A stretch of 15,950 nucleotides of DNA from an uncultured Desulfomonile sp. (GTDB lineage Bacteria; Desulfobacterota; Desulfomonilia; Desulfomonilales; Desulfomonilaceae): the NCBI GenBank assembly GCA_903853735.1, contig CAINUH010000241.1, positions 1 to 15,950 on the forward strand, read 5' to 3'. Of this stretch, positions 1,350-11,465 are shown piece by piece (positions within the stretch are counted from its first letter, which is position 1; each line of letters opens with the position of its first letter). The notes beneath the pieces are model-generated. The model saw only the letters and a list, made by a program, of their open reading frames with translations, was not told where the DNA came from and did not search any database. Both the position numbers and the translations under genes were made by a program.

Positions 1350-3888
1350 GCGAGAATCCTTTGTTATCGACACTGAACGTGTCATACTGGACGGAAGTCT
1401 TCGTCATCTTCAGGGACACTGAATCGGTTCTGGTCAACCCGAGTATTGCCAGCACGGCGTCCCACGGGTGTACCGACCCTTCCGGACCTACTTTGAGAGT
1501 CATTCTTAATACCTTGCCTCTCACATCAAGATCACTCACCCAGTCCTTGAGATCCCTTCTTCTGGGCTTGCCTTTCCGCACGCTGCAAATTTCCACGTGG
1601 GGCGAGACACTGAATTCTGCCACCCGACGTTTTGCATCTTCGCCCGAGAAGGAATCAGAAAAATTTATTTCGTACGTAACTTCTTGAATTTTACCAGAAA
1701 CCTGCGGCTCGTTCAATGATCTTTCTTCCAGGCCCACGAGTTTGAGTCCGTCCGGGAGAGCTATTTGAAGGCTTCGTATGATTTCTTCCGCCATCTGACC
1801 AGAGTGTACCAACTCAAAATCTACGAACTCTGCGAAACTCTCAATTCCAAGCCCCAGGGGAGGCGAAAACCTTAACTTGGGATGAGGATGAAACCCTTTG
1901 GAATAGTCCAGCTCCAAACCAGCCCTCCTGAAAGCACGATGAAACACCCTTACAATGTCATGATGGCCAAGGAAGCGCATTCTGCCAAGCTTCGCGTAGC
2001 AGAGTCGGAACCTGCGGATTCCCAACTCCAATGAACCGGTCTTGAGGTGTGATTGCCTATTTTCCTCGGTTATTGAGCCGGCAGCAAGTTTTGGTTCTAC
2101 TTTGCTGAAATCACAAACGCCGCACCCGGTACATTCATTGAAACGACAATCGGCCGTCATTTCTTCCGAAAGGGCCTTCTCCCATTCTCGTACGAGGTAT
2201 TCCCGCGATACCCCTGTATCAATAAAATCCCAAGTCAATTCATCGTGCATCGATTTTTGCTCAAGGTATCCGTGGGGGTACACTTGGTTCTCCCCAAAGG
2301 TATCCATCCAGAGATCGAACTTGAGCTGATCCGCCCAACCATCAAATCTGGCGCCTTTTTTAAATACCGTTTCTATCACATTCGACAACCGACTGTCACC
2401 GCGTGCCAGAACACCTTCCAGGAAGGAGGTTTTTGCGTCGTGAAACTTCACGATCACCCCTCGCTTTTGAAAATATCTTGCTATGTATTGCTGCCTACGT
2501 CTCGTTTCTTCCATGGAAATCTGCTTAGTCCATTGGAAGGGTGTGTGGGATTTCGGAACAAAGGTTGAGAGCGATGCCGTTATACGCCCTCCTGCGGCCC
2601 ATTTTGACGCTTTTCTGATAAGACCCACCATTCCGTCCAGATCCGGATCAGTCTCAAAAGGCAACCCGATCATGAAATATAGCTTAATCGAAGTCCAACC
2701 TTGCCTGAAAGCCACGGTTATCGCCCTTTCCAGGTCTTCCTCGGTATTTCCTTTGTTGATGATCCGCCGCAGTCTGTCGGTTCCAGCTTCCGGAGCCAGA
2801 GTGAACCCTGTCTTGCGAACCTTCCGAATGTGTTCAGCCATTTCCGAGTCAAAGGTGTCGGTCCTCAGCGAAGGAAGAGATATCGCGACTTTGCCGGGTG
2901 TGAATTCAGCCGCCATTATCTTGATCAATTCCCCAATGTGGGAATAATCACCGGTGGAAAGGGAAAGCAAGGCAACTTCTTCCCAACCGGTTGATGCGAT
3001 GCTGTTTCTTGCCAGCGTCAAGATGGTTTCTGGCTCTCGCTCCCTGACAGGTCTATAAAGCATTCCCGCCTGGCAGAATCGGCAGCCCCTGGTACACCCC
3101 CTGGCGATTTCCAAGCCGACACGGTCATGGACGGTCTCGCAAAAAGGCACTATCAGTCGGCTGGGGAAATGCGCTTTTTCGAGATCTGCCACAATGCGCC
3201 TATGAACTATGTCTCCTTTCTCGTGAAGCGAAGGCACAAACACGCCTGCCACTTGCTTCCATTGCTCGAGGAGGTCCTCTCTTGCACTTCCCGACGCTTT
3301 CCATTGGACCTGGGCGTGGGCCAGTTCCAATATTGCTTCTTCCCCGTCTCCGATCGCAAACGCGTCGAAAAAGGGTGACAATGGGACAGGATTGAAGGCG
3401 ACAGGGCCGCCGCCAACGACAAAGGGGTGATCCATAGTTCTATCTTCGGCGCGCAGGGGGATGCCTCCCAGTTCCAACATTTGAAGAACATTGGTTGCAC
3501 ACAGTTCGTACTGCAAGGAGAAACCCAAGAAATCGAGATGAGAAAGCGGTGTCCCGCTCTCGAGAGTCACAAGGGGTCTGTGTTCTTTCCTCAGTAGACT
3601 TTCCATGTCCGGCCAGGGCGCAAAGACTCTTTCAGCATACAGATCTTCCTGAGAATTCACTATCGAACAAAGGATCTTAAGTCCGAGGTGTGACATCCCC
3701 ACCTCGTACACATCCGGAAAGGCAAAGGCGATATGGAGTTTGATATGGTGAATATTCTTGATTACTGAATTGATTTCACCGCCAATATAACGGACTGGCT
3801 TTTGGACCAAGAGCAAGAGGTCTTCCGCAATTTCGGAGGACGAACAGGGTTGTTCAGAGAAATTCGTTAGTATCGGTGTTTCTGTCAT
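1339..3888 (-). CDS. B12-type radical SAM protein fused to DUF2344 (TIGR03960/TIGR03936-like)
   Basis: This 849-residue cytoplasmic protein has three parts. Residues about 35-230 resemble the cobalamin-binding-like N-terminus of the family. A radical SAM core follows, with the 4Fe-4S CxxxCxxC motif at Cys265, Cys269 and Cys272 (GCTRGCRFC) and a glycine-rich strand downstream. A DUF2344 domain occupies about residues 627-849 (RMRFLGHHDI, KGFHPHPK). Between core and DUF2344 there is a second cysteine cluster (Cys581, 586, 589, 592; CRFNECTGCGVC) that could hold another Fe-S cluster or zinc. The family is conserved next to rng in many Desulfobacterota and Firmicutes but, as far as I know, its substrate is not established. 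The frame also opens at a TTG at 3933, but that codon has no ribosome site. I prefer the ATG at 3886-3888, although its AAGGGAG lies a long 15 bases away. The end overlaps rng by 11 bases. Confidence 0.9.
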   Translation of the reverse strand: MTETPILTNFSEQPCSSSEIAEDLLLLVQKPVRYIGGEINSVIKNIHHIKLHIAFAFPDVYEVGMSHLGLKILCSIVNSQEDLYAERVFAPWPDMESLLRKEHRPLVTLESGTPLSHLDFLGFSLQYELCATNVLQMLELGGIPLRAEDRTMDHPFVVGGGPVAFNPVPLSPFFDAFAIGDGEEAILELAHAQVQWKASGSAREDLLEQWKQVAGVFVPSLHEKGDIVHRRIVADLEKAHFPSRLIVPFCETVHDRVGLEIARGCTRGCRFCQAGMLYRPVREREPETILTLARNSIASTGWEEVALLSLSTGDYSHIGELIKIMAAEFTPGKVAISLPSLRTDTFDSEMAEHIRKVRKTGFTLAPEAGTDRLRRIINKGNTEEDLERAITVAFRQGWTSIKLYFMIGLPFETDPDLDGMVGLIRKASKWAAGGRITASLSTFVPKSHTPFQWTKQISMEETRRRQQYIARYFQKRGVIVKFHDAKTSFLEGVLARGDSRLSNVIETVFKKGARFDGWADQLKFDLWMDTFGENQVYPHGYLEQKSMHDELTWDFIDTGVSREYLVREWEKALSEEMTADCRFNECTGCGVCDFSKVEPKLAAGSITEENRQSHLKTGSLELGIRRFRLCYAKLGRMRFLGHHDIVRVFHRAFRRAGLELDYSKGFHPHPKLRFSPPLGLGIESFAEFVDFELVHSGQMAEEIIRSLQIALPDGLKLVGLEERSLNEPQVSGKIQEVTYEINFSDSFSGEDAKRRVAEFSVSPHVEICSVRKGKPRRRDLKDWVSDLDVRGKVLRMTLKVGPEGSVHPWDAVLAILGLTRTDSVSLKMTKTSVQYDTFSVDNKGFSHVQ

Positions 3889-5592: not shown

Positions 5593-5967
5593 TTGCAAAT
5601 CATCTCAACAGGAGCGGCAACTGAACCGTTTCTCACAAAGACGGGTGAGCGGATGCTTGAGTACGTGGATGAAGGCCGCTTCCGCTCAATCTGTCAAACC
5701 GCTTTGGAAGGACTGGCTTCCAGGAAGCTCAACCTTGCGATGTTGATCGAACGCCGGGCTCTGGCTCAGGCCGAAAATCGCCATGCTAATCTAGTGGGGC
5801 AAGAACCACATGATGACCCTCCGGCAACTTTTTACGAAACCCGAGATGATTCCGGCTTCAACGGCCTGGTATTTGGCGGATCTCGGAGAGGCGCGCGGCA
5901 AACAGGAACTTTTCACGCGCCAATCTCCGCAACGACTGCGATTCCTGCGCGAGCACTCACTCATTGA
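5593..5967 (+). CDS. Unrecognised small ORF upstream of fic, possibly a gene remnant
   Basis: The frame is open from 5551 with a TTG at 5593 and an internal ATG at 5653, and runs out of frame into the fic gene. Up to about residue 72 the composition looks protein-like, with a charged helical stretch containing LEGLASRKLNLAML and IERRALAQAEN. After 5810 the frame overlaps the securely coding fic frame and is probably meaningless. There is no convincing Shine-Dalgarno before either start. I do not recognise a family. It may be the 3' remnant of a gene whose 5' part was lost when this segment was inserted or decayed, or a short partner of the Fic protein. Otherwise only a weak inverted repeat (5530-5558) is seen in the 300 bases before fic. 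Confidence 0.25.
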   Translation: MQIISTGAATEPFLTKTGERMLEYVDEGRFRSICQTALEGLASRKLNLAMLIERRALAQAENRHANLVGQEPHDDPPATFYETRDDSGFNGLVFGGSRRGARQTGTFHAPISATTAIPARALTH

Positions 5968-6862
5968 AAGCGCTGTCTCATCCAACCGCATAGAAGGGAT
6001 CGAGATTGACAAGCCACGCGTAAACACGATCATTTTTGGCAGGCCTGTTCTTCGCGACCGAAATGAGGAAGAAGTTCATGGTTATCGCGAAGCGCTCCGG
6101 TTGATTCATGAGGACTCCTTACACCTGCAGATTGACGAAGAGACAATCCTGATGCTTCATCGGCTTGCCAAGGGCGACATCTGGGACGCAGGACGGTACA
6201 AGGAAAAGAATGGCGATATCATCGAAAGACACGCCGACGGCTCGTCACGCATTCGGTTCAAAACAGTCCCTGCAGCTCAAACGCGCGGTTCCACTCGTGA
6301 ACTGGCTCAGCTCTGGGAAAACTCAATCCTCGATCGCTGGGCCCATCCTTTGATCGCCATGGCGGCTTTCAACCTTGATTTTCTATGTATACACCCGTTT
6401 CGTGACGGCAATGGTCGCGTTTCTCGCCTCTTGCTGCTCCTTCAATGCTACCATCTCGGCTATCAGGTAGGCCGTTACATCAGTCTTGAGCGGATCATCG
6501 AGCAAAACAAGGAACGGTATTACGAAACACTTGAACAGAGTTCCACACATTGGCATGAAGGCAGGCATAATCCCTGGCCCTATATCAACTATCTCCTGTT
6601 CGTTCTCATAACGGCTTACCGAGAATTCGAGCAGAGGCTCGATCTGACCCAGAGTCAACGCGGCGCAAAGACCGAAATGATTGAAGAAGCCATCAACGCC
6701 ATGCAGGGAGAATTTACGCTAACAAAACTGGAACAGGCCTGCCCCAGTGTCAGTCGGGACATGATCCGACGTGTTCTTCGAGAGCTTCAACGAGTGGGAG
6801 GTGTCGAGTGTCTTGGCCGAGGCCCGGGAGCCAAGTGGAAGAAAAAGGGTATTACCTCTTAA
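5810..6862 (+). CDS. Fic family protein adenylyltransferase, class II, with C-terminal winged helix
   Basis: This 350-residue Fic-domain protein is of the kind that transfers AMP from ATP to hydroxyl side chains of target proteins. The catalytic motif HPFRDGNGRVSR (residues 195-206) matches HPFx(D/E)GNGRxxR completely, with catalytic His195. An N-terminal inhibitory motif S58-x3-E62-G63 (SNRIEG) matches (S/T)xxxE(G/N), so the autoinhibitory helix is on the same chain and ahead of the Fic core: class II. Residues about 285-350 look like a winged helix-turn-helix (TLTKLEQACP, SRDMIRRVLRELQRVG), suggesting DNA binding and possible autoregulation. Start: tandem ATGs at 5810 and 5813, with only a weak G-rich sequence upstream. 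Its stop codon lies inside an inverted repeat (6851-6872) leading into a broken methyltransferase gene. The enzyme appears intact; its target is unknown. Confidence 0.93.
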   Translation: MMTLRQLFTKPEMIPASTAWYLADLGEARGKQELFTRQSPQRLRFLREHSLIESAVSSNRIEGIEIDKPRVNTIIFGRPVLRDRNEEEVHGYREALRLIHEDSLHLQIDEETILMLHRLAKGDIWDAGRYKEKNGDIIERHADGSSRIRFKTVPAAQTRGSTRELAQLWENSILDRWAHPLIAMAAFNLDFLCIHPFRDGNGRVSRLLLLLQCYHLGYQVGRYISLERIIEQNKERYYETLEQSSTHWHEGRHNPWPYINYLLFVLITAYREFEQRLDLTQSQRGAKTEMIEEAINAMQGEFTLTKLEQACPSVSRDMIRRVLRELQRVGGVECLGRGPGAKWKKKGITS

Positions 6863-6884: not shown

Positions 6885-7270
6885 ATGATCCCAAAGGAAT
6901 GCAAACGCATTGCCGAGGTCTCGAAACACTCAGCTCGGGAGACGTCCATCCGTCATGGCCACCCATCCACATTGAGTTCATAGCCAATTTCGCAAACTGG
7001 GACAACTCTGCTAATAAAGAGTTTCTCGAGACGAGTCGCGCCCACGTGAAGGCCGCACACCCTGAAGAACCTCCGCTTGTGGACCCGTCCGCAGGCGGTG
7101 GCTCAATCCCCTTGGAGGCACTTCGGCTGGGATGCGACGCATTCGCCGGCGACCTCAATCCTGTGGCCTGTCTCATTCTCAAGGTGATACTGGAAGACAT
7201 CCCAAGGCATGGCCCTGCACTGGGGTTTACAGATTTTTTTGCAGGCAAGATGCCTGCGCTCCCAGCCTAA
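6885..7270 (+). pseudogene. Remnant of DUF1156-type DNA methyltransferase
   Basis: Two pieces of one protein family lie in different frames. From the ATG at 6885 the frame gives the N-terminal signature of DUF1156 methylases (SKHSARETSIRHGHPSTL) and then hits a stop at 6981-6983. A second frame, open through 6975-7270, continues with a downstream part of the same protein: FIANFANWDN, then DPSAGGGSIPLEALRLGC, which is the AdoMet-binding DPxxGxG motif region, and DLNPVACLILK with IPRHGPAL. The expected intervening segment (the WWARRP region) is missing, so there is an internal deletion with frameshift near 6975. The protein then ends in a short palindromic repeat (7241-7257) instead of the rest of the enzyme. 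Intact members are several hundred residues longer and occur in defence islands. The gene is clearly dead. Confidence 0.8.
7241..7257. repeat. Short palindromic repeat GCAGGC-AAGAT-GCCTGC
   Basis: A perfect 6-bp inverted repeat with a 5-base loop follows seven Ts (7234-7240) and is followed by GCTCCCAG. It ends the homology of the methyltransferase remnant. Translated, it gives AGKMPALPA in one frame and RQDACAPS in another. From general knowledge, these peptides turn up often at the ends of spurious ORFs in several phyla, which suggests a dispersed REP-like or MITE-like element. Only one copy is in this window, so its repetitive nature is inferred. Confidence 0.4.
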
Positions 7271-7424: not shown

Positions 7425-8081
7425 TCATCTCACAGATAGATATGGTTCAGCCTTCTTGGTCCAAGAGCTGTTTGGGTAAGCTGCCAAGAGTTTTTCGTAC
7501 GTTTCCTGCATTACCTTCAGGTCTTTTGTGCTTTTGAAACGGGCCACCCCCCAATAATACATCGCTTCAGGAGCCTCCTCACTTTTCGGATAACCGGATA
7601 CCAGCCGGCTGAAGTCGGAAGCCCCTTCGGCATACTGGCCCGCCTGGAGTTTCACCTTTCCAATTCCTAGCATGAGAGCTGAAATTAAGTTCTCGGGGGA
7701 GAGGAATCCTTCATTTCGGTATACCTCATTCCCTTGAGCATCCAGGGCGATGAGAGTCGGCGTCCACGTGACCCGGAAACGAACCGCAAGCGGTTGTTGA
7801 TCGTAACGCATTCGAACCGGGATCACGTTGTGCCGCATGAATTCTATTACTGCCGGGTTGGGATACGTAACCGCATCCATTTTTTTGCAGCCCATTCAAT
7901 TTGGGTTGAAAAAATCGATGAAAACAGTCTTGTTTTCAGAACGTGACTGCGCCATTGCCGCATCGAAATCCGTCAGCCACTGAATGCCCTGAACATGCGA
8001 TCCGTTTGTTTGAGCCCATGAAATACCCGTAGCCTGAAAGACCACAAGCAGACCCACGATCACCAACGCCGGATGTCTCAT
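7425..8081 (-). CDS. Secreted thioredoxin-fold selenoprotein (UxxC) with C-terminal TPR-like helices
   Basis: Read through one in-frame TGA (7896-7898), this is a 218-residue protein. It has an N-terminal signal peptide of about 23 residues (hydrophobic VIVGLLVVFQ, cleavage near SWA-Q). A thioredoxin-like domain follows: strand VFIDFFNPN, active site U62-M-G-C65, and the cis-proline TPT turn at about Pro108 (VTWTPTLIALD). About 80 residues of TPR-like helices close the protein (LQAGQYAEGASDFSRLVSGYP, then YEKLLAAYP). The TGA is exactly where the first Cys of CxxC is expected, and both sides belong to one fold, so selenocysteine insertion explains the gene. It is likely a periplasmic thiol/selenol reductase or isomerase. 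Start: ATG at 8079-8081 with AAGGAG 7 bases upstream; a TTG two codons earlier is too close to that site. The alternative is a nonsense mutation of TGC/TGT. No conventional neighbour in its operon is visible. Confidence 0.85.
7861..7878 (-). promoter_or_regulatory. Candidate bacterial SECIS hairpin
   Basis: In the mRNA, 17 bases after the UGA, GGAUGCG can pair with CGUAUCC around the four-base loop GUUA. All seven pairs form, one of them G-U. The loop begins 25 bases after the UGA and its first base is G. This agrees with the general description of bacterial SECIS elements: an apical loop about 16-37 bases downstream, with a conserved G in the first two loop positions. The hairpin lies inside the coding region, as bacterial SECIS elements do. 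The pairing is seen directly; SelB recognition is inferred. Confidence 0.65.
7896..7898 (-). other. In-frame TGA, predicted selenocysteine codon (Sec62)
   Basis: The codon lies between FFNPN and MGCKKMD in an otherwise unbroken frame of 61 codons before and 156 after it. It takes the place of the first cysteine in a thioredoxin CxxC, giving U-M-G-C. The following ATG (7893-7895) has no Shine-Dalgarno, which argues against a separate downstream gene. Confidence 0.8.
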
Positions 8082-8416
8082 TGCCAATCTCCTTGGAAAG
8101 TAGTCACAGCGGCCTTTCTATGGCACAGAACTCACCATCGTGAAAGCACATTCGTCTCAAAAGATCTCTAAGCACCTACCAGTTTCAGGCCTATTCGGGC
8201 TAACCGCCCACTGAACCCAGTACATACTGCTGCTTCTTGTGAATCGATGCCTCTTTCAAGTCGCGTAACAGCCTCATGTAATCCATAAGGGAGGTGATGA
8301 TGTTGTTTCTTGTAACCACTTGACCGCCAATCGTGGAACGGATACAAGGTCATACATCGTTATCCGTATAATTCTTTGGAGTTCAGCCTCTGGGAATTCC
8401 CGATGTAGTAGTGTAC
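8082..8416. other. Divergent intergenic region between selenoprotein and first cbiA gene
   Basis: No supportable gene is seen. A 61-codon minus-strand frame (8168-8353) lacks a ribosome site and any recognisable motif. The region should carry the promoters of both divergent genes. On the plus side there is a good -10 candidate (see 8367-8372) and a perfect palindrome GGGAATTCCC at 8392-8401. I looked for a cobalamin riboswitch because of the downstream gene. A piece resembling part of the B12 box (around 8200-8215) is present, but without the rest of the conserved structure. Confidence 0.4.
8367..8372 (+). promoter_or_regulatory. Candidate -10 hexamer for cbiA copy 1
   Basis: The sequence is a perfect TATAAT. 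No convincing -35 hexamer lies 15-18 bases upstream, nor is there an extended -10 TG. Initiation about 7 bases downstream would give a leader of about 38 bases carrying the GGGAATTCCC palindrome. This is a weak call based on one hexamer. Confidence 0.25.
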
Positions 8417-9907
8417 ATGCCCATGACTTTTGGCGTCCCAAGAATAATCACCGCGGCTCTCAGAGGAGGTGCCGGTAAGACGCTTATCACAGTGGGGCTG
8501 ATTGCAGCCCTCCGGCGGAGAGGGATCCTGGTGAGCGCTTTCAAGAAAGGCCCCGACTACATCGACGCGGGGTGGTTAGGTCTGGCAGCAGGTCGTGAAT
8601 GTTACAATTTGGACCAGTACCTGTTCAACAATGAAACGTTGAAGTACTCGTTTCTGAGGAGATCTCAAGGGGCACATGCGGCCATCATCGAAGGAAACCG
8701 TGGGCTGTTCGACGGGGTAGATTCTAACGGAAGTTATAGTACTGCTGAATTGGCCAAGTTGTTAAAATCTCCGGTAATACTAATTATAGACGCGACGAAG
8801 ATGACTCGGACCGCCGTTGCTCTGGTGCTTGGATGTAGTGCCATGGATTCCGATCTGAAGTTGGCCGGAGTAATTCTCAACCGAGTAGCAGGAGACCGAC
8901 ATGAAAGAATTCTACGAGAATCCATTGAGAACACCTGCTCGGTTCCGGTTATTGGCTCGGTTATTAAACTGTCCTTAGCCAACTTTCCTCAAAGGCATTT
9001 AGGTCTTCTCCCCTTGCATGAGCATCCAGCGGCGGCGGAGTTTGTGGAGGAAGCCGGCAACATTGTTGAGCGGTCCGTGGATCTGGATGGACTGATGAGA
9101 ATAGCCGGCTCGGCAGATCAATTCGGCTCAGCGCCAATTGATGTTTCAAATCGTGAGGGGGATAAGAATAGGTCTCACAAAGGCATCCGAGTAGGGATAA
9201 TGAAAGATTCGGCGTTCCAATTCTACTATCCGGAAAACCTGGAATCCCTCACTTCAACAGGTGCTCAACTCGTCCCAGTCAGTGCCCTGGAGGCGTCGGA
9301 GCTTCCCGATTTGGACTGTCTATACATAGGGGGCGGTTTTCCCGAGATGTATGCTGAACGATTGGCAGACAATGCAGGTTTCAGGCGGTCTCTTTTGAAC
9401 GCCATTGACCGGGATCTGCCGGTTTATGCGGAGTGTGGCGGTCTCATGTACCTGTCCAGGAGCATCCGCATAGACGAAAGAGTGTTTCCCATGGTGGGAG
9501 TTTTCCAAGCCGACACTGTTCTGGAAAGAAAACCACAGGGACTGGGCTATGTCCGCGTGCAAGTGGCACAACCGAACCCATTTTACCCTGTCGGCGCGAT
9601 CCTATCCGGCCACGAGTTTCATTATTCATCGGTGTCAGGGCTGGATCAATCTGGAATGGGATACGCCTTTGAAGTATTGAGGGGGCACGGCATAGACGGT
9701 CGCCGTGACGGCATGTTTGTTCGCAACACCTTAGGCACCTACATGCACGTCCATTCGTTAGGCGAACCACTGTGGGCTTGCGGCATCCTCAAAAAGGCTT
9801 CAGAATTCAGAAGGCTATCCAGTGTAAAGCGAATTGAGGGATTCCGTAAAGAGTCTGATCAAACTCTTACAGGGTGCAAGCAGAAACAACATCAAAATGG
9901 TATTTGA
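8417..9907 (+). CDS. cbiA: Cobyrinate a,c-diamide synthase family amidotransferase, tandem copy 1
   Basis: This family uses glutamine and ATP to amidate the a and c acetate side chains of cobyrinate; relatives amidate siroheme (DsrN) or Ni-sirohydrochlorin (CfbB). The 496-residue protein starts with an ATP-binding P-loop domain, with GGAGKT at residues 17-22, FKKGPDYIDAGW and EGNRGLFDG. It ends with a class I-like glutaminase domain carrying the nucleophile Cys340 (YAECGGLMYL) and a histidine near the end (YMHVHSLGEP). Length fits the family (about 450-500). The start is not fixed by a clear ribosome site. GTG 8411, ATG 8417 and ATG 8423 are possible; 8417 gives the same distance to the P-loop as copy 2. 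It is about two thirds identical by eye to copy 2 over the N-terminal half. Which tetrapyrrole it uses cannot be decided here. Confidence 0.9.
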   Translation: MPMTFGVPRIITAALRGGAGKTLITVGLIAALRRRGILVSAFKKGPDYIDAGWLGLAAGRECYNLDQYLFNNETLKYSFLRRSQGAHAAIIEGNRGLFDGVDSNGSYSTAELAKLLKSPVILIIDATKMTRTAVALVLGCSAMDSDLKLAGVILNRVAGDRHERILRESIENTCSVPVIGSVIKLSLANFPQRHLGLLPLHEHPAAAEFVEEAGNIVERSVDLDGLMRIAGSADQFGSAPIDVSNREGDKNRSHKGIRVGIMKDSAFQFYYPENLESLTSTGAQLVPVSALEASELPDLDCLYIGGGFPEMYAERLADNAGFRRSLLNAIDRDLPVYAECGGLMYLSRSIRIDERVFPMVGVFQADTVLERKPQGLGYVRVQVAQPNPFYPVGAILSGHEFHYSSVSGLDQSGMGYAFEVLRGHGIDGRRDGMFVRNTLGTYMHVHSLGEPLWACGILKKASEFRRLSSVKRIEGFRKESDQTLTGCKQKQHQNGI

Positions 9908-10034
9908 AGATACCGTGTGCTTGAGGTCAAGAAAGACAAGAGAGTGCGATCTCAGTCAAATCGGTCACATCGGATACGAGAACCGGCCCGACAATTCAAT
10001 GCAGCGTCCCACATTTTTGGAGAGTGAACTGAAG

Positions 10035-11465
10035 ATGGCAGACAATATTAACGTTCCCAGGATAGTGCTGGCAGCCCTTAAAGGAGGTGCGGGCAAGACT
10101 TTTATCACCGTTGGATTGGCCGCAGCGCTCCGGAGGAGGGGACTATCCTTGGCAATGTTCAAGAAAGGCCCCGACTATATCGACGCAGGCTGGCTCGGCT
10201 TGGCTGCCGGATGTAATTGTTACAATCTCGATGCCTATCTGTTCGAACAAGACGTTGTCACGGATTCGTTCCTGAAAAGGTGCGCTGGTAGTCAAGCAGC
10301 GCTCATTGAGGGCAATAGGGGTCTTTTCGACGGAGTCGACTCCATGGGTAGGTACAGCACGGCAGAACTTGCAAAGCTGTTGAAAGCGCCGGTCATAATA
10401 ATCGTTGATGCAACCAAGATGACGCGGACAGCGGCAGCGCTTGTCCTGGGCTGCAAAGTCCTTGACCCCGATTTGGCAATACAAGGCGTAATATTGAATA
10501 GAGTGGCAGGCGCAAGACATGAAAAGGTGCTCGGTGAATCGATTGAGAATGTCTGCTCGATTCCGGTCCTCGGATCTGTCGGTAAGATAGCGGTTGAACA
10601 TTTTCCTCAGCGGCATCTCGGAGTACTTCCATCATACGAGCATCCCCAGGCCCAGGGCTTTCTTGAAGAAGCCGCGGATGTTGTTGAGAGGAGTGTTGAT
10701 TTGGATTGCTTGCTGGAAATAGCATCCTGCGCAGAAGTCCTTGCCCCAAGAGATGATCTGGAACTCTTCCGAGACAAGCCCGCTCTGTATGCCGGCCTGA
10801 AAATAGGCGTCCTAAAGGATTCAGCCTTCCAGTTTTACTACCCTGAGAACCTTGAAGTCCTTTCCGCTACCGGAGCGGAACTCGTCGAAATAAGTGCCCT
10901 TGAGCCTATGAGGCTTCCTCCAATAGATGCCTTGTACATCGGTGGCGGCTTTCCCGAAACCCACGCCGGCATTCTCGCTCAGAATTCAGTTTTCAAGGAG
11001 TCCATTCGAGATGCCGTTGAGGGTGGACTCCCCGTTTATGCCGAATGTGGCGGATTGATGTATCTGTCTAAGTCGCTGCGTATCGATGATAGGGTCTATC
11101 CTATGGTAGGAGTGTTCCCCGTTGACACGGTACTGGAACGAAAGCCTCAAGGGCACGGCTATATTCACGTAGAAGTCTCTGGAATTAACCCGTTTTTCCA
11201 GATAGGGACCTCCTTGACCGGCCACGAATTCCACTATTCGTACGTTACACCAATCCGAGAGCACGATGCTTCGTATGCGTTCAAAGTACTGAGGGGACAT
11301 GGCATGGATGGCATGCATGACGGTATATGCAAATACAATGCTCTGGGGACTTATGTGCATCTGCATGCCCTCGGTGCACCGCTTTGGGCCGATGGTATCC
11401 TGGCTCGTGCCAAGGATTTTAGCAAGGGACTCAACAAACATGGGAAATCGAACTCATTTGCATGA
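10035..11465 (+). CDS. cbiA: Cobyrinate a,c-diamide synthase family amidotransferase, tandem copy 2
   Basis: This 476-residue paralogue of the preceding gene has the same domain order: P-loop GGAGKT at residues 17-22, FKKGPDYIDAGW, EGNRGLFDG, glutaminase nucleophile Cys338 (YAECGGLMYL) and terminal YVHLHALGAP. All the catalytic signatures seen in copy 1 are kept, so both copies appear active. The frame is open from 9834, inside copy 1, but homology begins at the ATG at 10035, which has GGAGAG around 10018-10023. The preceding 127 bases carry no recognisable gene. The 3' end overlaps the helicase gene start by 26 bases. The divergence between copies suggests either an old duplication with different substrates (cobyrinate versus siroheme or another sirohydrochlorin derivative) or acquisition of a paralogue. 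Family assignment is sure; the reaction is not. Confidence 0.9.
   Translation: MADNINVPRIVLAALKGGAGKTFITVGLAAALRRRGLSLAMFKKGPDYIDAGWLGLAAGCNCYNLDAYLFEQDVVTDSFLKRCAGSQAALIEGNRGLFDGVDSMGRYSTAELAKLLKAPVIIIVDATKMTRTAAALVLGCKVLDPDLAIQGVILNRVAGARHEKVLGESIENVCSIPVLGSVGKIAVEHFPQRHLGVLPSYEHPQAQGFLEEAADVVERSVDLDCLLEIASCAEVLAPRDDLELFRDKPALYAGLKIGVLKDSAFQFYYPENLEVLSATGAELVEISALEPMRLPPIDALYIGGGFPETHAGILAQNSVFKESIRDAVEGGLPVYAECGGLMYLSKSLRIDDRVYPMVGVFPVDTVLERKPQGHGYIHVEVSGINPFFQIGTSLTGHEFHYSYVTPIREHDASYAFKVLRGHGMDGMHDGICKYNALGTYVHLHALGAPLWADGILARAKDFSKGLNKHGKSNSFA

Follow-up and report, generated by a model that had tools for sequence, protein, structure and literature searches.

A predicted exported UxxC thioredoxin-like selenoprotein with a TPR-like tail, encoded across an in-frame TGA in an uncultured Desulfomonile sp.

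The stretch of DNA analysed here, hereafter the window, comprises 15,950 nucleotides of a contig from an uncultured Desulfomonile sp. (CAINUH010000241.1). Its minus strand carries, at 7425..8081, a single frame of 218 codons closed by a TGA stop (7425..7427), the sole interruption being another TGA at codon 62 (7896..7898). The ATG at 8081-8079 was taken as the start codon, with a Shine-Dalgarno-like AAGGAGA just upstream (8088..8094, minus strand), and no AAGGAGA-like ribosome site was found in the window sequence upstream of the ATG that directly follows the internal TGA. The observation of one frame split by an internal TGA, on which the initial annotation was built, was confirmed: the two abutting pieces, ending in FFNPN and beginning with MGCKKMD, share a single frame and belong to one gene, as had been claimed, and the ribosome site lies before the upstream half only. 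By comparison with TGA-bearing relatives, the frame from 8081 is conserved across the UGA at 7898-7896, which occupies the catalytic Cys column, and the gene almost certainly encodes a selenoprotein.

The neighbouring genes include two tandem cobyrinate a,c-diamide synthase (CobB-type) genes at 8411-9907 and 9834-11465, which are diverged paralogues with a shared repeat, and a Fic-domain protein at 5810-6862, a possible AMP-transferase. A 123-residue ORF without a Pfam match at 6899-7270 is perhaps a gene remnant; it contains a DPSAGGGSIPLEA motif, which we take to resemble the start of a DNA methyltransferase. A TIGR03960-type radical-SAM neighbour was found to be closest to Desulfomonile/Desulfomonilaceae metagenome-assembled genomes, with values of 78% for locus L008 (residues 6-471) and 62% for L001 (residues 13-839).

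The thioredoxin-like domain was assigned to approximately residues 35-136 (7674..7979, minus strand) on the basis of Pfam matches, alignments with 2kuc and 3f9u and the columns invariant among 21 members of the family, and comprises D56, U62, C65 and the TP of the cis-Pro loop (P108). The read-through protein matched Thioredoxin_2, Thioredoxin_7 and TPR_6, all above cut-offs, with E-values of 2.1e-12, 1.3e-9 and 1.9e-9, respectively. The best Pfam match was PF13098 (residues 48-136), with 47.7 bits against a gathering score of 27, and PF13899 was matched at residues 34-114. Codon 62 was aligned to the first active-site Cys of both 2kuc and 3f9u, the two structure alignments displayed (2fwe and 7aye were also matched in the PDB), and the residue at U+3 was Cys in all 82 rows that bear a TGA, a set with four duplicates; the assignment of the TGA to the leading Cys of a thioredoxin CxxC, proposed from the window alone, was borne out. 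The residues invariant among the 21 members include D56, F57, N59, P60, U62, C65, T107 and P108. The pair T107-P108, assigned from sequence to the cis-Pro loop after the active site and invariant in 21/21, corresponds to the cis-Pro turn that had been expected in the downstream half. An Asp six residues before the site together with a cis-Pro is the pattern of reducing thioredoxins. The TPR-like tail, also anticipated in the initial annotation, covers approximately residues 138-206 (7464..7668, minus strand) and was recognised by TPR_6 at residues 172-205 (38 bits against a gathering score of 26.3), by a weaker Pfam match to TPR_14 at residues 138-170 and by the TIGR02795 YbgF region at residues 141-212; TPR_6 was detected in 19 of the 21 members (E 0.01). 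A single-sequence AlphaFold model of the window protein (pLDDT 44) was too poor to use. A selenocysteine at codon 62, within a predicted UxxC thioredoxin-like site followed by a TPR tail, is well supported.

Relatives of the gene were sought at several taxonomic levels, in genomes reached through the loci matched by the radical-SAM neighbour. A contig scan with the window protein itself confirmed no relative. Within the class of genome G001 (42 genomes), all 22 strong matches (E <= 1.8e-25) contained exactly one TGA, and these were spread over 12 genomes with up to five copies per genome. A profile of the alignment of 21 members, and hence built from Sec members, was applied to 395 genomes of the phylum with at most eight candidates scored per genome, and gave 92 matches with E <= 3.5e-34, 81 with a TGA (75 genomes) and 11 without (hand count). 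Eighteen of these 81 TGA rows, like G017:C65 of the class, rest on a computed stop count, and one of the 81, G016:C2, also shows a TAG, which is its own end. In total, 80 distinct Sec members from about 70 assemblies (hand count) were read base by base, and 63 of these belong to the 81 phylum rows; four duplicate rows had been dropped, and the set includes several close relatives or copies within one genome. Among 32 further genomes, including Geobacter and other phyla, the TGA form was found in one, Geobacter sp. OR-1 (via L020), and TGA-free matches (E 1e-26 or better) were found in three, via Nitrospirae, Calditrichia and Caldisericaceae loci. In the family to which Geobacter sp. OR-1 belongs, the gene was present in 3 of 13 genomes, with a TGA in all three. 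The 14 TGA-free profile matches, which are separate from the 80 members, had Cys at the Sec column in 12 cases (six CxxC and six CxxS); the distant homologues L211 and L212 had neither Sec nor Cys at the site. Homologues with Sec and others with Cys at position 62, which had been named as the check on the selenoprotein reading, were both obtained. The window gene is, on this comparative evidence, a member of a predicted Sec family that occurs in many sulfate reducers and bacteria related to them (Desulfobacterota). Among the strong matches of the phylum, Sec forms far outnumber Cys forms (81 versus 11, with a profile built from Sec members); Table 2 of PMC2398784 gives 22 Sec and 2,098 Cys forms for the 'Trx-like 2' class.

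A bacterial SECIS-type hairpin was predicted at 7861..7878 (minus strand) from its fold, its agreement with a published model and its covariation, with a 7-bp stem, a 4-nt GUUA loop starting 24 nt after the TGA and a folding energy of -10.4 kcal/mol. These values fall within the bacterial SECIS model as described in PMC13188914, which has a stem of 4-16 bp, a loop of 3-9 nt with a G in its first two positions and a distance of 16-37 nt between TGA and loop. When scored by a purpose-written script that allowed contiguous stems only, hairpins conforming to the model at -5 kcal/mol were found in 77 of the 80 members; six other offsets gave 7-12 of 80, and 9.0 of 80 were expected after synonymous randomising. 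None of the 12 Cys homologues had such a hairpin at -5 kcal/mol; L204 reached -3.7, and L203 had a stem of 5 bp in that position but lacked the loop G (-4.7), perhaps a hairpin remnant. For the window alone, 14 of 200 synonymous randomisations folded as well, so the hairpin is unremarkable with the amino acids fixed, and none of 200 dinucleotide shuffles did, but for a window stretch that had been cut to fit. Over the 80 members, the z values from synonymous randomisation had a mean of -1.27 and lay below 0 in 76 cases; at seven other offsets the means ranged from -0.25 to 0.14. The codon columns flagged for excess synonymous identity (excess > 0.25, n > 40) were +7 (GAT in 53/56) and +10 (ACG in 64/67), both inside the hairpin; smaller excesses were seen at +5, +9 and +11, and also at some columns outside the hairpin with few rows (e.g., +14, n 25). 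The stem in register was paired in 89.9% of cells, compared with 22-68% when slid by 1 to 4 positions, and in 21 of its cells both sides had changed; 500 shuffles gave 3.2 such cells on average and never more than 9. Sliding gave 2-18 double-changed cells, the highest values being those at +3 (18, with 22% pairing) and -2 (14, with 68% pairing). Judged from the aligned members, the stem is one that covaries across the family. Changes in the protein accompany those of the RNA pairs (MDAVTYP, METVTFP, MGAVTYP and MNTGPYS), such as D to E with Y to F, so that a SECIS within the coding sequence is an RNA structure constraining the enzyme beside its active site.

The arrangement TGAATG, in which the TGA of the window is directly followed by an ATG, is a layout known from coupled genes and would allow two genes, a 61-residue peptide and a 156-residue protein made by termination and reinitiation. 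An ATG at this place occurs in only 4 of the 80 members and an Ile codon in 61, which speaks against reinitiation; such a split would moreover sever the thioredoxin fold just before its active site, and the reading frame, the U+3 Cys and the hairpin persist across the family. Reinitiation was rejected as highly improbable. A TGA lies one base from TGC or TGT, and six homologues are CxxC here, so the codon could be pictured as a Cys codon mutated in a pseudogene or misread in sequencing. The same TGA recurs in the 80 distinct sequences and is followed by the covarying hairpin, and substitution rates argue in the same direction. In the three of eight pairs that were unsaturated on both sides of the TGA (five being saturated on at least one side), dN was well below dS on either side, with dN/dS values of 0.196/1.236 upstream and 0.209/1.082 downstream for the window and L125, 0.031/0.420 and 0.078/0.602 for L138 and L140, and 0.016/0.179 and 0.030/0.172 for L137 and L138. 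A pseudogene or misread codon was discarded as exceedingly unlikely, and selenocysteine insertion in a functional gene is the reading retained.

The selenium machinery was surveyed in the same class of 42 genomes. SelA and SelB were found over cut-off in all 12 genomes that carry the family, compared with 35 and 37 of the 42, respectively, for the class overall. tRNA-Sec was over cut-off in 10 of the 12 carriers and in 38 of the 42 class genomes; in the carriers G003 and G011 no tRNA-Sec exceeded the cut-off of RF01852. In 14 control genomes, SelB, SelA and tRNA-Sec were over cut-off in two, one and five, respectively, and low tRNA-Sec scores mean little because five of the controls also pass the RF01852 cut-off. 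The genome of locus L008 (G007) contains SelB, a SelA split into two pieces, of which one is over cut-off, and a tRNA-Sec of 68 bits whose anticodon is TCA. A frame open across a TGA would also be produced if TGA had been reassigned as a general sense codon, e.g., for Trp or Gly. TGA is not generally reassigned, since 31 of the 80 members end in TGA, as does the window gene itself; the Cys at the TGA column in 12 of 14 TGA-free homologues and the presence of SelA and SelB in all carriers of the class likewise point away from reassignment, which was rejected with a probability close to nil. As an observation on the machinery itself, three of the 42 class genomes contain a second, divergent SelB match adjoining a tRNA-Sec-like gene of 52-56 bits: G014 (L246:1235-1322 and 1453-3339), G015 (L247:573-662 and 821-1894) and G033 (L248:261-348 and 442-1524). 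The anticodon of the adjoining tRNA is GCA (Cys) in G014 and G015 and TCA in G033, and the high-scoring tRNA-Sec of G014 has the anticodon TCA. The SelB-adjacent gene may put Sec or Cys at UGC/UGU codons; selC*-type tRNA-Cys has previously been reported.

A signal peptide was predicted at approximately residues 1-23 (8013..8081, minus strand; end approximate, SWA|Q) from hydropathy and from the members of its clade. The N-terminus of the window protein contains a hydrophobic, signal-peptide-like stretch (11-residue hydropathy of 3.4) and no Cys for a lipobox, and the protein is highly likely to be exported. Export calls were made from hydropathy and position, with start codons chosen by a script. 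By this start-site heuristic, the Sec lies about 30 residues from the start in 74 of the 80 members, which lack a signal-peptide-like stretch; the other six, including the window protein, possess one and have U as residue 62. The extracytoplasmic location given in the initial annotation is accordingly predicted for the window protein and not for most of the family. The exported form was found in four genomes, among them G007 (61% identity) and G017 (63%). In a tree of 91 rows, which included 11 of the TGA-free matches and was rooted at the midpoint for drawing only, the six exported members formed one side of a branch with support of 100/99 and were joined to four cytoplasmic Sec members with 97/88. 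As the exported six lie in one clade joined to cytoplasmic Sec members, export looks like a derived trait of that clade, and the family seems to record a single step by which a cytoplasmic selenoenzyme became an exported one. Four shorter cytoplasmic members (L141-L144), whose active site reads UGAC and whose TPR-like tail is likewise shorter, formed a separate group (100/100). The members L182 and L237-L239, which include that of Geobacter sp. OR-1, constitute a subfamily with the motif DFWFDGUxGC and a different SECIS stem, GAAUACGG..CCGUAUUC, and the Cys form L202 groups with it. L202 lies inside a 100/100 group and L203 on a long branch of unsure placement (97/72), and their position among Sec members suggests loss of Sec to Cys; the other nine Cys rows stand apart from the Sec members.

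Taken as a whole, the locus is very probably one Sec-reading gene for an exported protein that joins a DsbD-gamma/thioredoxin-like domain, the bearer of the U62-M-G-C65 site, to a TPR-like tail and is predicted to be a periplasmic thiol reductase. The protein would leave the cytoplasm by the general Sec pathway and work in the periplasm as a thiol:disulfide (selenenylsulfide) reductase, in which U62 would attack substrate disulfides and C65 would resolve the intermediate, with the TPR tail docking a partner or client. Periplasmic thiol reduction is thus the function that we infer. Electrons would come from a membrane transporter of the DsbD/CcdA type, possibly TsoB. The best NCBIfam matches of the window protein were the C-terminal regions of TsoB and DsbD, both of which were also matched by 21/21 members. 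The C-terminal domain of DsbD (PRK00293, NF001419) matched residues 23-135 with 41 bits; this domain is a periplasmic reducing thioredoxin domain, which has Cys and not Sec, is part of a membrane protein and lacks a TPR tail. The top NCBIfam match, to positions 447-567 of TsoB (NF045694), reached 44.9 bits, far below the cut-off of 805. TsoB is a rhodanese/DsbD fusion that spans about 570 positions; the full-length copies detected contain two or three TGA codons, and TsoB was observed at L244 and L245 and in G001, G008, G015, G016 and G017.

The direction of catalysis was weighed against other roles for a selenoprotein. An oxidase, an isomerase, a peroxidase-like enzyme or a selenium or metal carrier would be compatible with the absence of a conserved operon partner, none being found in 48 loci beyond clusters of four to six loci, and exported thioredoxin folds include isomerases, 2kuc itself being labelled a putative disulphide-isomerase. 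The best profiles, on the other hand, were those of the DsbD C-terminal region, TsoB and thioredoxin, with no DsbA or DsbC model among the matches listed; all 21 members have the Trx-type Asp at six residues ahead of the site, and Sec often sits in reducing enzymes. A role as net reductase is accordingly favoured with some reserve, and one of the other roles is the less probable but real possibility. Two larger neighbour clusters, of 29 and 14 loci, overlap the gene on the opposite strand and were set aside as antisense frames.

The relation to TsoB was considered separately. TsoB was over cut-off in 7 of the 42 class genomes, all seven of which carry the Sec-thioredoxin-TPR family (7 of the 12 carriers), and was present in three of the four genomes with the exported form; it was not found in G007, which has that form. 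This co-occurrence could be explained by common ancestry, and TsoB is a doubtful candidate for the electron donor. A speculative and improbable extension would be that, in bacteria of the Desulfomonilaceae type, the exported Sec-thioredoxin-TPR protein and the membrane selenoprotein TsoB form a selenium relay that passes electrons through the membrane to disulfides or oxidised sulfur compounds in the periplasm; the origin of the relay would lie in the gain of a signal peptide by a cytoplasmic Sec-thioredoxin of the wider phylum.

UxxC selenoproteins with a thioredoxin-like domain are already on record, namely the 'Thiol:disulfide interchange protein' assigned to PF13098 (PMC13188914, Table 1), the 'Trx-like 2' class with cd02953 (PMC2398784, Table 2) and a 'thiol:disulfide interchange' selenoprotein in Syntrophus aciditrophicus and two Geobacter species (PMC1794560, Table 3). 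The first of these, compared by description only, has the same UxxC and the same Pfam family as the window protein and is described in the portions available without mention of the TPR tail that the latter possesses. More broadly, TPR is not mentioned in the available portions of PMC13188914, PMC9312934, PMC1794560 and PMC2398784, nor is tetratricopeptide in those of the first two; the available portion of PMC13188914 likewise does not mention secreted proteins or a signal peptide, and no entry of its Table 1 names a TPR tail. Literature searches returned nothing on point for selenoproteins combined with TPR or tetratricopeptide, with Desulfomonile, or with DsbD and a signal peptide. The initial annotation had called the protein not a widely described family, which holds for the TPR-tailed architecture as far as these sources go and does not hold for UxxC DsbD-gamma-like selenoproteins as such (PMC13188914, PMC2398784). 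The exported, TPR-tailed form would add a new variant to the UxxC thioredoxin-like selenoproteins already known, with the 'thiol:disulfide interchange' family on that list compared by description only.

No NCBIfam model was over cut-off for the window protein, and none was for the 21 members among the matches listed at 1e-5. Ordinary annotation would likely cut these genes in two or shorten them, given that no NCBIfam model scored above its cut-off in these scans; a selenoprotein family predicted in 75 of the 395 phylum genomes sampled is concerned. The selenoprotein TsoX (NF045809, HSGNPxU) has a UxxC with an NPxU motif according to Table 1 of PMC13188914, which resembles the NPxUxGC of the window protein, and its model was among the matches listed neither for the window protein at 1e-3 nor for any of the 21 members at 1e-5. 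The Trx7/PDZ (NF041199) and VPGUxxT (NF041383) models showed weak kinship to the thioredoxin region of the window protein, with 20.2 and 25.5 bits, far below their cut-offs of 300 and 275 bits, respectively; their motifs are given as CxxU and VPGU in the same table. A further VPGUxxT model, NF041382, was found to match 4 of the 21 members.
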